A stretch of DNA of 38,260 bases from positions 1-38,260 of the IMG/VR virus record IMGVR_UViG_3300035099_000171. One strand, written 5' to 3'. The first letter of the stretch is position 1. The number at the start of each line of letters is the position of its first letter. The position numbers and the translations under genes are program-made. Below, in pieces: positions 4,912 through 28,126 of this stretch. The notes beneath the pieces are model-generated. The model ran no database searches, was not told where the DNA came from, and worked only from the letters and a program-made list of their open reading frames with translations. This DNA comes from a virus.

Positions 4912-5855
4912 TATTGTAATATTTCCTCATATAATTTATAATGTTGTAATGCCACATTTTCCCAACAATTCTCATTAACATATTTTTCTTGGTTCTTTTT
5001 GTAATAATTTTGTAACAATTTATTTTTTAATAATTCTTCACATCTATTTGATAAATCTTTAATATCTGTTTTCGGACAAACATCATCCTGTATATCTTTA
5101 AATTGATATACATCAGTAACTAAAGTTAAAACTCCTGTGCCAAGACAAATTCTGACAGACCCCGATGCTTCTTCTTTATTCTCTTGTTGTGGTAAAACAA
5201 TTAAATCTGCTACTTGCATTATTGCAGATATAACACTATAAGGATAAAAATCAGTCCAAAAATATGTTTTGATATTAAATCTTCTTACTAAATCTTTACA
5301 TTCTTCTAAATAGTTTATACATTCTTGTTTTTTCTGATCGTGAATAGAAGTAAGACAAAGTAAAGTTATATTAGGGAAACTTTGTTTAATACTTACTAAT
5401 GCCATAATTAATTCTTTTATTCCTTTATGTGGCATTGCAAATCCATAAGTTAGTATTACAGGTCTTCCACAATTTAGGTTATATCTTGCCCATCCTTTTG
5501 TCTGTTTAAATTTTATTATTCCGTGTGGGAGAATTCTGTATTTATTACTTTGGATAGATGATTTTCTATGTAATATTGCTATATCAAAATAAGGTTCTAA
5601 TTCTTTAAATTTATCTAAATTATGAAAAGTTATAACAATTTTTTTAGGTCTTTGTTTTATAAGTTCATTTTTAACTATTTCAATATTTTCATATAATCCA
5701 GAATGAAATTGTAAATGATAAATTAAATTATCATCTGAATTACTGTTGATACTGGAATTGGGAAGGTAATATGAAAGTAGTTTCGTGTATTCCGCTATTC
5801 CACATTTCTTTCCCCAACTCTCTACTTGTAAATTTATTTTTAAATATTTGTTCAA
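4911..5855 (-). CDS. Glycosyltransferase, GT-B fold, family 4-like
   Basis: This 314-aa protein has an N-terminal CGIAEY (residues 18-23) typical of GT4 enzymes, then PHGI, YGFAMPHKGIKELI (central linker) and a donor-binding region with LPQQENKEEASGS...LGTGV (about 219-243). The start is a TTG at 5855 preceded by GGAGGAG at about 4 bases. The conserved CGIAEY segment requires this upstream start. That places its first 116 bases inside the 3' end of the GT9-like gene, an unusually long same-strand overlap. It probably transfers a sugar to a virion, cell-wall or DNA acceptor; which is not shown. Confidence 0.8.
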   Translation of the reverse strand: MNKYLKINLQVESWGKKCGIAEYTKLLSYYLPNSSINSNSDDNLIYHLQFHSGLYENIEIVKNELIKQRPKKIVITFHNLDKFKELEPYFDIAILHRKSSIQSNKYRILPHGIIKFKQTKGWARYNLNCGRPVILTYGFAMPHKGIKELIMALVSIKQSFPNITLLCLTSIHDQKKQECINYLEECKDLVRRFNIKTYFWTDFYPYSVISAIMQVADLIVLPQQENKEEASGSVRICLGTGVLTLVTDVYQFKDIQDDVCPKTDIKDLSNRCEELLKNKLLQNYYKKNQEKYVNENCWENVALQHYKLYEEILQ

Positions 5856-11023: not shown

Positions 11024-12292
11024 CTAATTTAAATATCCTAATTTTTTTAAATTTTTCTCATCTTCTATCCATCTATCAGAAATATCTACTCTGTATCCAC
11101 AATTTGGAAATTTTATTTTCTCTACTTCTTTATAACATAATTTTTTAGCAATATCACAAGTTTTACCATAATTAGTAATAATACAAGTATATCCATTTCC
11201 ATTATTAGAAGTAAAATAAAATCCTTTATTGAATTTCATTTCCCCAAAATGAAAATGTTTTTTATCTTTTGGAACTTTAAGTAAAGGTAGATTTTTACTG
11301 TGTTTTATGTATGCTTCTTCATAAGGAAATCCTGCAGAATAAACAACAACACCTATTGCATAAGCATTTATATAATTAAAAGATTTTAATGTTCCATTTG
11401 CTATATCATAAAATATTTTACTCCATTCTGTTTTTTGTAATTCATCTAATATATAAACTTCTGGATAACCAAGTCGTGTTCCAAACTCTAATACATAAAT
11501 TCCTTTTTCATTTACAATACAACCAACATTTATTTGACATCTATAATTTGTTTTTTGTAAAATAGGTTTTAATTTTAATAATGTTTCTTTAAATAATTTA
11601 TCTGTATTAGGATACATTATCATAGAGCCAACTTCTCCAGTTAATGCACCTAAATTACCTGTTAATAATTTTTTATATTCAAAAAGATAATTAAAAGGCA
11701 TAACAAAATCTTGACCATTAAAATAACAAGTAAGTCCTATTTCTATTCCATCAATAAATTGTTCTAATTCAAATTCTGGCTTTCCTTTCCATTCTTTTGG
11801 CATCCCGTAATTTAACATTTCTATTACATCATTACCATCTTCATATTCACCTACAAAAGTAAGCCAAGTCTCCATATTCCCAAATGGTTTTACAACATAT
11901 CTTGCAGGATATTTTTTTATAAAATTTATTCCATCATCAAAAGAAGAAAATTTTTTATTCATTATTATATTACCCATTTTTAATTGTTGGACAATTTTTT
12001 TACCAAAATCTCTATCAAGTTCTATTTTATCAGTAAAAATATTATTACCAAAAACTTTTTTACCTTTCTTTCTTAATTCTTCACAAACATTTCCAAATTT
12101 TACATTATCAACTACAATTAAATCAGCCCAATCAACAGCATCTTTAAATGAAGTTGTTTTAGGCACAATTCCATCTCCAATATCTTTGTATTTATTAGTA
12201 GTAGCAAACATAACAACTTTATTCCCTTCTTCTATACATCTATAAGCAATATCTAAACTTTCGTAATTATGTGTTATAAATAAAATTTTCAT
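11024..12292 (-). CDS. ATP-grasp ligase, PurD-like (phosphoribosylamine-glycine ligase superfamily)
   Basis: This 422-aa protein has the usual length of PurD (about 420-430). An N-terminal Rossmann-like part (1-95) is followed by DRDFGKKIVQQL and an ATP-grasp core with ARYVVKPFG (about 131-139) and ELEQFIDGIEIGL. The C-terminal LEFGTRLGYPE corresponds to PurD's LEF(N)xRFGDPE metal/ATP site. Its ATG overlaps the stop of the small upstream gene. Finding it between portal and scaffold genes is odd for purine synthesis. It may join an amino acid to a nucleotide or virion component, but the substrate is not shown by sequence. Confidence 0.75.
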   Translation of the reverse strand: MKILFITHNYESLDIAYRCIEEGNKVVMFATTNKYKDIGDGIVPKTTSFKDAVDWADLIVVDNVKFGNVCEELRKKGKKVFGNNIFTDKIELDRDFGKKIVQQLKMGNIIMNKKFSSFDDGINFIKKYPARYVVKPFGNMETWLTFVGEYEDGNDVIEMLNYGMPKEWKGKPEFELEQFIDGIEIGLTCYFNGQDFVMPFNYLFEYKKLLTGNLGALTGEVGSMIMYPNTDKLFKETLLKLKPILQKTNYRCQINVGCIVNEKGIYVLEFGTRLGYPEVYILDELQKTEWSKIFYDIANGTLKSFNYINAYAIGVVVYSAGFPYEEAYIKHSKNLPLLKVPKDKKHFHFGEMKFNKGFYFTSNNGNGYTCIITNYGKTCDIAKKLCYKEVEKIKFPNCGYRVDISDRWIEDEKNLKKLGYLN

Positions 12293-16481: not shown

Positions 16482-16510
16482 TTGACAAAATAAAAAATTT
16501 ATGGTATAAT
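16482..16510 (+). promoter_or_regulatory. Early-right promoter, perfect sigma70 consensus
   Basis: TTGACA (16482-16487), exactly 17 bp, TATAAT (16505-16510), within very A/T-rich DNA. Transcription should begin at about 16516-16518, right at the ATG of a 40-codon leader ORF. It drives the initiator gene through a structured leader. Confidence 0.88.
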
Positions 16511-16516
16511 AAAGAT

Positions 16517-16639
16517 ATGAAAAAGAAGATTGTAATAGGAAATTTAAAAGAATATCATCTTCCTGCAAGTGGTTCTTGCGTAGGATTTCCTCACAAGAAT
16601 TTCCTATTAGCAATCTTCTCCACTTGCAGGAGGAATTAA
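16517..16639 (+). CDS. 40-codon leader ORF, possibly leaderless
   Basis: An ATG at 16517 coincides with the predicted transcription start of the consensus promoter, so it would have no ribosome-binding site. The frame stays open for 40 codons (beginning MKKKIVIGNLKEYH, ending FSTCRRN) and stops at TAA 16637-16639, one base before the initiator ATG. It spans the whole hairpin region, so a ribosome translating it would open both stems and end beside the next start codon. It may be a regulatory leader peptide or a chance open frame. Confidence 0.35.
   Translation: MKKKIVIGNLKEYHLPASGSCVGFPHKNFLLAIFSTCRRN
16525..16634 (+). ncRNA. Structured 5' leader RNA with two crossing stems, one hiding the Shine-Dalgarno
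   Basis: Stem A pairs 16525-16544 with 16598-16618 (20 bp, one bulged G at 16610). Stem B pairs 16558-16572 with 16620-16634 (15 bp, one GU). A small hairpin (TTCTTG 16573-16578 with CAAGAA 16594-16599) lies between them. The order A5'-B5'-A3'-B3' is crossing, so full A and B cannot easily coexist: only 13 bases link A5' to B5'. The 3' arm of B contains AGGAGG (16628-16633), the initiator's ribosome site. This looks like a switch or promoter-proximal control RNA; no known riboswitch class was recognised. Confidence 0.65.
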
Positions 16640-16640
16640 A

Positions 16641-17411
16641 ATGACTAACGGCTGGATAAAACTTTATAGAAAAATAGAAGAAAAAAATTGGTGGAGAAAA
16701 CAAAGATTTACTTGGGGACAGGCGTGGATAGATTTACTTTTGATGGCTAATCACAAAGACGAAAAAGTTGTATTTGATAACGGAAATTATTTTGTCCCAA
16801 AAGGCTCATTCATTACCTCACAAAGAAAATTAGCAAATAAATGGAAGTGGGGAATAGCTAGAGTGAGTTGCTTTTTATCTTACCTTCAAAAAACGGAACA
16901 GTGCATAGAATACAAAACGGAACACAATTTTACTCATATTTTTATCTTAAATTGGGATAAATATCAAAGTGAAGCGGAACACCAAACGGAACAAAAAACG
17001 GAACATGAGCGGAACATGAGCGGAACACGAGCGGAAACAAACAAGAACGTAAAGAATGATAAGAATATTAATATATATACCACAAAATTTGAAAATTTTT
17101 GGAAATTATATCCTTCCAGAAAAGGTATAAAAGTAGGTAAGAAAAAAGCAAAAGAACAATTCTTAAAAAAAATTAAAACTGAAAAAGATTATAATAATTT
17201 AATTACAGCAGTTAAAAAATATATTACTACCGAACAAGTCCAAAATGAATTCGCTAAAGATTGCTTCAGATGGTTAAGAGATGAAGAATGGAAAGATTTT
17301 CTTATTGAAGGGGAACAGGAAAAAGAAAAAAAATATATTATGACTAAAAAATTAAATGATAAAGGATTTGAAATTGATGTAGCAGTAGAGGTAGAAGAAG
17401 AAAATCAATAA
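16641..17411 (+). CDS. Replication initiation protein (DnaD/O-like, winged-helix N-terminus)
   Basis: This 256-aa protein begins GWIKLYRKIEEKNWW...WGQAWIDLLLMANHKD and then FITSQRKLANKWKWGIARVSCFLSYLQKT, the usual N-terminal winged helix of Gram-positive phage replication initiators. A Gln/Glu/Thr-rich linker (about 105-142) is encoded by DNA iterons. The C-terminal part has FENFWKLYPSRKGIKVGKKKAKEQFLK, frequent in phage initiators. It should bind the origin and bring in the host helicase. It has AGGAGG 7 bases before the ATG, inside a stem of the leader. Confidence 0.78.
   Translation: MTNGWIKLYRKIEEKNWWRKQRFTWGQAWIDLLLMANHKDEKVVFDNGNYFVPKGSFITSQRKLANKWKWGIARVSCFLSYLQKTEQCIEYKTEHNFTHIFILNWDKYQSEAEHQTEQKTEHERNMSGTRAETNKNVKNDKNINIYTTKFENFWKLYPSRKGIKVGKKKAKEQFLKKIKTEKDYNNLITAVKKYITTEQVQNEFAKDCFRWLRDEEWKDFLIEGEQEKEKKYIMTKKLNDKGFEIDVAVEVEEENQ
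16894..17037 (+). repeat. CGGAAC iterons inside the initiator gene; candidate origin
   Basis: CGGAAC occurs at 16894, 16918, 16975, 16987, 16999, 17010 and 17021, and the variant CGGAAA at 17032. The last six are spaced 12, 12, 11, 11 and 11 bp, about one helical turn. They are read as ACG-GAA, GAG-CGG-AAC, AGC-GGA-ACA and GCG-GAA, so the DNA motif persists through all three frames. An A/T-rich stretch (17041-17105) follows. This is the layout of lambda's origin inside gene O. Confidence 0.7.
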
Positions 17412-17426
17412 AATGTGAGGTGAAAT

Positions 17427-17657
17427 ATGAACGAAATAACTAAAGCAATCTTAAAAACATTAGAAAACAAAATCTTACCTTTAGATTTTAATGGTCTCAC
17501 TCTAATTGAAGAAGTAAGAAAAATAACAGGTAGAGAATACTTATACGATAGCACCATAACAAGATACCTCCGCAGATTAAGAAAAGAAGGAATTTTAGAT
17601 TACGAAGTTATTGATAAAAAGAAAAGTCAATATAAACTGCTAAAAGTAAAGGAGTGA
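17427..17657 (+). CDS. Small winged-helix DNA-binding protein
   Basis: This 76-aa protein has a helix-helix-turn-helix with a basic recognition segment, TITRYLRRLRKEG (about 43-55), and a beta wing YEVIDKKKSQYKLL. This is the winged-helix layout of small regulators (compare pfam-type 'DUF3489/ArsR-like' wings). It lies 15 bp after the initiator with GAGGTGA upstream. It may be a regulator of the early operon or a partner of the initiator. Confidence 0.65.
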   Translation: MNEITKAILKTLENKILPLDFNGLTLIEEVRKITGREYLYDSTITRYLRRLRKEGILDYEVIDKKKSQYKLLKVKE

Positions 17658-18999: not shown

Positions 19000-19028
19000 T
19001 TGACAAACACTTGACAATATGCTATACT
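19000..19028 (+). promoter_or_regulatory. Second rightward promoter
   Basis: TTGACA (19000-19005), 17-bp spacer, TATACT (19023-19028). The transcript would start near 19035, directly before GGAGGTGG and the ATG at 19054. It serves the block of small early genes. Confidence 0.85.
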
Positions 19029-19053: not shown

Positions 19054-19212
19054 ATGAAAAGAGAAGCAAGAAGCATTAAAGAAGAAGAAAGAATATCTAA
19101 AATTTTGAAGAAGGAGAGCAGGGAAATAAAAAAGATGGCAAAAGAAAAAGGAATAGTCGGCTGGACAAAAGAAGAGATGCCAGCTGAATTATTTGAAATT
19201 TTGAAATGCTGA
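19054..19212 (+). CDS. Small basic helical early protein
   Basis: This 52-aa protein is rich in Lys, Arg and Glu (17 of the first 35 residues are charged), is predicted helical to residue 34, and ends PAELFEILKC. GGAGGTGG lies 6 bases before the ATG. The stop lies within a 25-bp tandem repeat, whose first copy codes the last residues. First gene after the promoter; family not recognised. Confidence 0.65.
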   Translation: MKREARSIKEEERISKILKKESREIKKMAKEKGIVGWTKEEMPAELFEILKC

Positions 19213-19256
19213 ATTATTTGAAATTTTGAAATGCTGAATTATTTGAAATTTTGAAA
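19183..19256 (+). repeat. Three tandem copies of a 25-bp unit at a gene end
   Basis: Copies at 19183-19207, 19208-19232 and 19233-19256 (the last one base short) begin GCTGAATTATTTG and are otherwise identical. The first copy codes the C-terminus of the 52-aa protein. Because 25 is not a multiple of 3, extra copies fall in other frames and follow the stop. The perfect identity indicates recent slippage. Confidence 0.9.
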
Positions 19257-19269
19257 GAGGTGAGTAAAT

Positions 19270-27164: not shown

Positions 27165-28126
27165 TGTTTTTTCTCCTTTTCACTTTTTAATTTTAAATTT
27201 AATTGCTCTGCAAGTTCTTTAATGAAATTATCCTTCTGTTCTTCTGTCAAGTCCTTGCTTGAATTGACCCCAAAATTCTGTTGCAATAAAACTCTGTATT
27301 CTTCGTCTAAAATTCCTAATTTATTTTGTAATTCTTTTATTCTAATAATTTTTTTATCAACTTTTTTCTTCTCTGTTTCTTCTTCTTTTTTCCCATTCCC
27401 AACTTTTTTATCCAAGTCCATATTTAATCTCTCTTGCAATTTTTCTTCTCCTTTTTCTTCTCCATACACTTCCATATATTTTTTATAAATTTCTTCTCTC
27501 TCTGCCTCTCCATATCCCAGAGTTCCAAATAATTTTTCTATCGTTTCTGGATATTTTGATTTTGGAAGTTCTTTTACTTCCTCTTTTTGCAATTCTACTT
27601 TACCATTTACAATTTCCTCTGCCCCTAATTCTTCAGGAGTATATGCTCCACCAATTAGATGAGGACAAAACCATCTTGCACCATTGCTAATTGCCCTTGC
27701 AAAAAGCAAGTTTCTTGGATATTTCCCCCAGAGATTGTAATCCACTCCATCTTTGACTTTTGGCTTTAAAAGTCCTGCTTTTTCTGCGTCTTTTAAAGAA
27801 AAAGAAGAAGTTCCGATTTTCTCCCAACCATTTTCTTTCCTCTGAAAAAAATCTATAATACATTTTTCGTTACTATGCTCAATTACTTTATAATCATATT
27901 CTTTGCTCTCCTTAATCTTTTGTGCCATTAAATCCGCACCAATTGCGATTTTTCCCTGTATGATGTGAACCTTCGTCATTGACAATAATGGCGGTATTCC
28001 CAACTCTCTCCCAGCCAGAATTTTCACAATTGCTTGTGCTTCTGACTTTGCGTCAGAAAATAGACCACTCCTGAAAAAGATTTTCCCTAAATTCTCTGCT
28101 TCTTGTAATGTTATTTCTTCTACCAT
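27161..28126 (-). CDS. recT: RecT single-strand annealing protein
   Basis: This 321-aa protein has AIVKILAGRELGIPPLLSMTKVHIIQGKIAIGADLMA (about 31-67) and LFARAISNGARWFCPHLIGGAYTPEEL (about 144-170), the conserved RecT/Bet core. A charged, helical C-terminus (205-321) follows. I chose ATG 28126, preceded by AAGGGGTGA; a GTG at 28135 overlaps the HTH gene's stop. It anneals complementary strands, working with the nuclease and RusA. Confidence 0.9.
   Translation of the reverse strand: MVEEITLQEAENLGKIFFRSGLFSDAKSEAQAIVKILAGRELGIPPLLSMTKVHIIQGKIAIGADLMAQKIKESKEYDYKVIEHSNEKCIIDFFQRKENGWEKIGTSSFSLKDAEKAGLLKPKVKDGVDYNLWGKYPRNLLFARAISNGARWFCPHLIGGAYTPEELGAEEIVNGKVELQKEEVKELPKSKYPETIEKLFGTLGYGEAEREEIYKKYMEVYGEEKGEEKLQERLNMDLDKKVGNGKKEEETEKKKVDKKIIRIKELQNKLGILDEEYRVLLQQNFGVNSSKDLTEEQKDNFIKELAEQLNLKLKSEKEKKQ

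Follow-up and report, generated by a model that had tools for sequence, protein, structure and literature searches.

Repeats of CGGAAC inside the replication initiator gene of this virus are, with high probability, the iterons of a predicted phage replication origin situated in the linker-coding part of an SPP1 gp38-type initiator gene. We analyzed the whole stretch of 38,260 nucleotides, here called the window. The repeats are selected as DNA, one helical turn apart, whatever the reading frame in which they are translated, and a further DNA element adjoins them on the 3' side. Judged by homology and by analogy with studied phages, they are very probably bound by the product of the gene that contains them. 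An origin inside its own initiator gene is already known from SPP1 and lambda; here the arrangement holds at the DNA level across a whole phage family.

The initiator gene (16641-17411, + strand; P0001) encodes a protein of 256 amino acids that matched PHROG 2514, a DnaD-like helicase loader family, with an E value of 1e-27, and matched SPP1 gene 38 by tblastn at 38% over residues 2-130 (E 1e-11). Other tblastn matches were initiators of Anoxybacillus, Staphylococcus, Listeria, Bacillus and Vibrio phages. By these matches the protein belongs to the SPP1 gp38-type family of DnaD-like replisome organizers. No close relative of the phage as a whole was found, and the nearest initiator (L021) is 50% identical in the N-terminal domain. 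A structure model, whose underlying alignment left out phage-record sequences, predicts a winged helix at about residues 10-110 (pLDDT 90-98 across most of 11-110), a poorly ordered linker at about residues 118-150 (pLDDT about 45-60) and a less certain C-terminal domain. The N-terminal part superposed on CAP-like winged helices with Z scores as high as 9.8 across 66-78 residues; Foldseek alone returned no match below 1e-3 for the model, and a sequence search of the PDB gave no significant match.

Upstream of the gene, a sigma-70-type promoter (16482-16510, +) has TTGACA and TATAAT separated by 17 bp, with all 12 consensus bases and a TG before the second hexamer. Since weaker sites of this kind are expected by chance, its function is putative. 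The leader at 16524-16634 contains two interleaved inverted repeats, one pairing 16524-16544 with 16598-16619 (one bulge) and the other pairing 16558-16572 with 16620-16634, which covers the Shine-Dalgarno sequence. They resemble alternative helices or a strained pseudoknot and could form a translation gate; a search of viral contigs found no copy of the repeat pair, and an Rfam search of the window gave no match. Directly downstream of the initiator gene, 17427-17657 encodes a small winged-helix-like protein (HTH_24, E 8e-4, below the curated cut-off), and none of the genes downstream of the initiator matched a PHROG of helicase or loader kind. The rest of the record encodes terminase, portal and head proteins, RecT, an exonuclease, RusA, methyltransferase pieces and an endolysin. 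The record gave no recognizable DnaB, DnaB_C, IstB-type or DnaC-type protein, and it may be a fragment.

The initial annotation had counted seven CGGAAC and one CGGAAA in the initiator gene, the last six copies spaced 12, 12, 11, 11 and 11 bp apart, and our recount confirmed this. On the + strand CGGAAC starts at 16894, 16918, 16975, 16987, 16999, 17010 and 17021, and CGGAAA at 17032. Five CGGAAC and the CGGAAA form the main array (16975-17037), which uses all three frames; the two upstream copies (16894-16923) are 24 bp apart and fall in codons just before and inside the wing of the winged helix. Similar outlying copies, in varying frames, occur upstream of the arrays of seven relatives (L138, L139, L152, L156, L165, L171 and L174). 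Elsewhere in the 38-kb window CGGAAC occurs once, at 27810 (-), and dinucleotide shuffles of the whole window gave a mean of 1.68 copies and never reached 8. The array has 52% G+C compared with 29% for the genome. The frame readings given previously (TE, (E)RN, SGT and AET) are correct, and the window translation adds AEH.

The initial annotation had also argued that selection on protein cannot explain the repeats, and synonymous-codon nulls bear this out. When the gene's own codons were shuffled with the protein fixed, six CGGAAC were reached once in 20,000 trials and seven in none; when codons were drawn according to the phage's other genes, the maximum in 20,000 was three. By the usage of those other genes, the codon choices beneath the seven CGGAAC have a joint probability of about 1e-13, because the array requires codons that the phage shuns elsewhere: ACG (6 of 273, 2%), CGG (4 of 230, 2%) and GCG (8 of 235, 3%). 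Since the nulls with the protein fixed do not reach seven copies and the array forces avoided codons, the repeats are a feature of the DNA. Within the window gene, only the CGGAAC at 17010 and 17021 leave the main frame; the other five of the seven share it, their distances being multiples of 12 bp or some other multiple of three. Such a shared frame is what would be expected if a low-complexity linker had grown by in-frame duplication and the DNA site were only apparent, and a comparison across the family was therefore needed.

Relatives came from three sources: a protein search (L021-L100), phage records (L007-L020) and a DNA-pattern scan, among whose listed matches are L101-L180. Across the linkers we counted 1164 repeated 6-mers at distances of 9-14 bp that break the frame, compared with 140 in synonymous shuffles; 73 of 99 genes reached p<0.01 individually. 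An unbiased distance spectrum of 80 distinct linkers, with the protein fixed, contained 625 pairs at 11 bp (43 expected), 428 at 22 bp (27 expected) and 373 at 33 bp (85 expected), with no peak at 13, 19 or 20 bp. The N- and C-terminal regions of the 80 genes showed no excess of the 11-bp type. A chain search that allowed steps of 11-12 bp found all three frames in use in 60 of 80 arrays; its spacing counts are biased by the allowed steps, and the period rests instead on the distance spectrum. Both the repeat word and the linker peptide vary between phages and the 11-bp spacing stays. The prediction made for a comparison of relatives, that the iterons persist under a drifting linker peptide, is borne out. 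The period in 80 linkers with the protein fixed likewise upholds the proposal that selection acts on the helical phasing of a DNA site.

These observations leave next to no room for an origin of the repeats in the protein. The 11-bp period with the protein fixed, the frame-breaking repeats, the use of all three frames and of codons that the phage avoids, and the constancy of spacing beneath differing peptides all speak against it; in its favor are the shared frame of most copies in the window gene and two relatives, L173 and L217, whose repeats are purely in-frame at 12 bp. The former was the exception in a DNA-only scan that found CGGAAC arrays in the linker of at least ten other diverged initiators: in nine of the ten listed the word changes frame, being read by turns as RN, GT, TE and AE, and in L173 CGGAAC occurs only as in-frame 12-bp repeats. 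Recent, functionless tandem duplication by strand slippage might be suspected from the three adjacent 11-bp units, which are nearly identical. We consider this exceedingly improbable, for the spacers between units differ and the word alone is kept, arrays occupy the same place in initiators that are less than 30% identical, an 11-bp slippage breaks the frame and would be lost unless compensated, and the distance spectrum of the 80 genes contradicts it.

In a tree of the initiators, the CGGAA word is not confined to a single lineage, and sisters may carry different words (the initiator of the window and L021; L139 and L028). This suggests that an array is replaced as a whole. A search with a 17-mer, CGGAACATGAGCGGAAC, matched contigs L005 and L006 in unrelated ORFs, and we regard these matches as chance.

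Directly 3' of the arrays, members of the family carry ACAAAC followed by 9-bp units of the form AAK-AAT-GWW, usually read as the peptide TN(K/N)N(D/V/E)(K/N)N. In the window this proposed unwinding or loading element (17037-17075, +) consists of ACAAAC, the 9-bp units AAGAACGTA, AAGAATGAT and AAGAATATT, and AATATA, and fits the family form with one mismatch per unit pair. Codon choice in the block varies with the place of the codon within the unit and departs strongly from that elsewhere: the ratio of AAG to AAA for Lys before Asn is 65:4 in the block and 55:63 elsewhere (Fisher p 5e-12), and Asn before a codon beginning with G is AAT in 135:3 in the block and 219:133 elsewhere (Fisher p 4e-19). 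Both p-values treat codons as independent and are optimistic because relatives share ancestry; the contrast is nonetheless large. In five relatives the ACAAAC junction is read in another frame. Among the matches listed for the DNA pattern ACAAACAAKAATGWWAAKAATG in viral contigs, 80 of 80 lie in the initiator family, 77 as recognized by a profile of the N-terminal part only, with linker columns excluded, and three in ORFs that do not have the N-terminal part. In genome contigs, 73 of 83 matches to the element pattern were within the family. No second 9-bp block was found elsewhere in the window beyond chance.

An A/T-rich region at 17041-17105 had been put forward as the unwinding site. Its G+C content of 20% places it only at about the 10th percentile of the A/T-rich window, and a stretch of the same gene at about 17158 is lower still, at 12%. 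The argument therefore rests on the motif and not on composition. The proposed unwinding site is better marked by the element at 17037-17075. In three contigs from genome assemblies (L362, L363 and L406), ACAAAC and AAK-AAT-GWW units occur with no intact initiator ORF over them; these could be second origins or remnants.

The nearest relative of the predicted origin is SPP1 oriL with its initiator G38P, and not lambda O. The oriL of SPP1 lies in gene 38 and comprises direct repeats, to which gp38 binds, with an A/T-rich unwinding element alongside; purified proteins have been used to reconstitute replication from it (PMC6316719). The window shares with it a homologous protein and direct repeats within the initiator gene that are followed by an A/T-rich element, and the SPP1 linker likewise carries 11-bp repeats across frames and a block of the ACAAC-AAT-GAT type. 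The two differ in the repeat word, which is of the AAACGAC type in SPP1. SPP1 also has three components that the record did not show: an adjoining loader (gp39), an adjoining helicase (gp40) and a further origin, oriR. For an oriR-like origin, the window offered only the one further CGGAAC and no second block beyond chance. In the staphylococcal phage 80alpha, ORF20 is essential and trans complementation failed; the authors of that study inferred that the ori is embedded in ORF20 (PMC5499656). This protein and the related DnaD-like initiators found in staphylococcal and Listeria phages belong to the same family and have the same linker arrangement. Their repeat words are different, and 80alpha has a DnaC-like loader gene. 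The analogy first drawn was with lambda, where iterons also lie in the initiator gene O beside an A/T-rich unwinding region. That general arrangement stands, but lambda is not the nearest system: its iterons are 19 bp long, have inverted-repeat symmetry and are bound by O dimers (PMC3985674, PMC5043065), and the lambda O family Phage_rep_O (PF04492) had no match in the record, with control genomes positive. Because of the homology to SPP1 gene 38, the failure of trans complementation in 80alpha and the outcome of the comparison of relatives, an origin bound by the product of its own gene is the best reading.

Two other roles for the array were weighed. Initiators of iteron replicons often autoregulate, and the sites lie within the initiator gene's own transcript unit, so the repeats might be operators through which the initiator holds down or times expression of the gene that encodes it, with the origin elsewhere. 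We think this very unlikely: the array is at least 400 bp downstream of the promoter at 16482-16510, the conserved A/T element follows the array throughout the family, and the equivalent site of SPP1 is an origin. Autoregulation may be a second role of the repeats. Alternatively, some other protein might read the array as a phage origin or packaging site, either a host factor or the winged-helix-like product of the neighboring gene at 17427-17657, whose sub-threshold HTH_24 match and position directly downstream make it a candidate. This is very improbable, since the array stays with the initiator gene in phages whose neighbor genes differ, and SPP1 gp38 binds its own repeats.

If the repeats are iterons read by the initiator, its winged-helix domain would bind CGGAAC and protomers would align along a single face of the DNA helix. 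Once assembled, the complex would open the adjacent ACAAAC and AAK-AAT-GWW block by strain, and a helicase and loader from the host, or unrecognised ones of the phage, would enter at the opened block and begin theta replication. Of the steps in this proposal, the way in which the helicase would be loaded is the least secure. Because the peptide linker is disordered, it can tolerate whatever the DNA site dictates.

The block may be compared with the DnaA-trios and the DnaD Recognition Element of Bacillus subtilis oriC, the latter an array of 5'-TnnT-3' that is bound single-stranded by DnaD (PMC10201434). The block consists mostly of NAN codons, so that T stands at nearly every third base of the lower strand, and long runs of NAN codons occur in the genes. 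This spacing of T resembles TnnT, a resemblance only, in a pattern read from sequence; the preference for AAG over AAA and the Val codons of the block are left unexplained by TnnT. As a tentative generalization, which we hold as conceivable and somewhat short of an even chance, the word would change in concert between phages with the 11-bp phase, ACAAAC and AAK-AAT-GWW fixed, the element would serve, in the manner of the DnaA-trios and the DnaD recognition element, as a coded site for single-strand loading, beyond mere A/T-richness, and mobile elements (contig L399, described below) would exploit this rule by stacking origins with different words.

What was less expected is the generality and cleanness of the family DNA signature and the sequence-specific block beside it. 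We found neither stated in the searchable literature; subscription papers on SPP1 oriL may describe them. Phage origins are unmarked in almost all genomes, and here a 22-base DNA pattern locates them with stray matches nearly nil. Initiator-origin pairs can thus be listed from sequence, and the rule of recognition is testable over dozens of naturally varied pairs. The linker also gives a clear example from nature of information that overlaps: a DNA site overrides both the codon usage and the peptide sequence of a disordered region.

Several further observations were made. Contig L399 (JAILBM010000371.1, from a Butyrivibrio MAG) contains at 470-1690 four origin-type blocks in about 1.2 kb. The repeat words differ from block to block, being of the AGACAGTAAGC, CGGAACACT, GGGACAGTAAC and ACAGAAAGAAA types, and the A/T element is nearly identical in each. 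No intact initiator ORF lies over the blocks. Scaffold and major capsid genes follow immediately downstream, and a tRNA-Gly lies further on, at 5063-5136. The contig is possibly an integrated, capsid-carrying element that stacks origins for several initiators, or it may hold decayed copies. In contigs L125 and L151, 11-bp-spaced CGGAAC arrays lie beside or inside ORFs that start with MRIRSTKPEFW or MSRIRNVKPDFL and do not match the family profile; these ORFs possibly represent another family of phage replication proteins with the same arrangement. In the window itself, a gene at 11024-12292 (-), situated between the portal region and the head genes, codes for a PurD-like protein that matched GARS_A and GARS_C. 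At 19183-19257, downstream of a promoter-like site at 19000-19028, the 25-mer GCTGAATTATTTGAAATTTTGAAAT is repeated three times in tandem.
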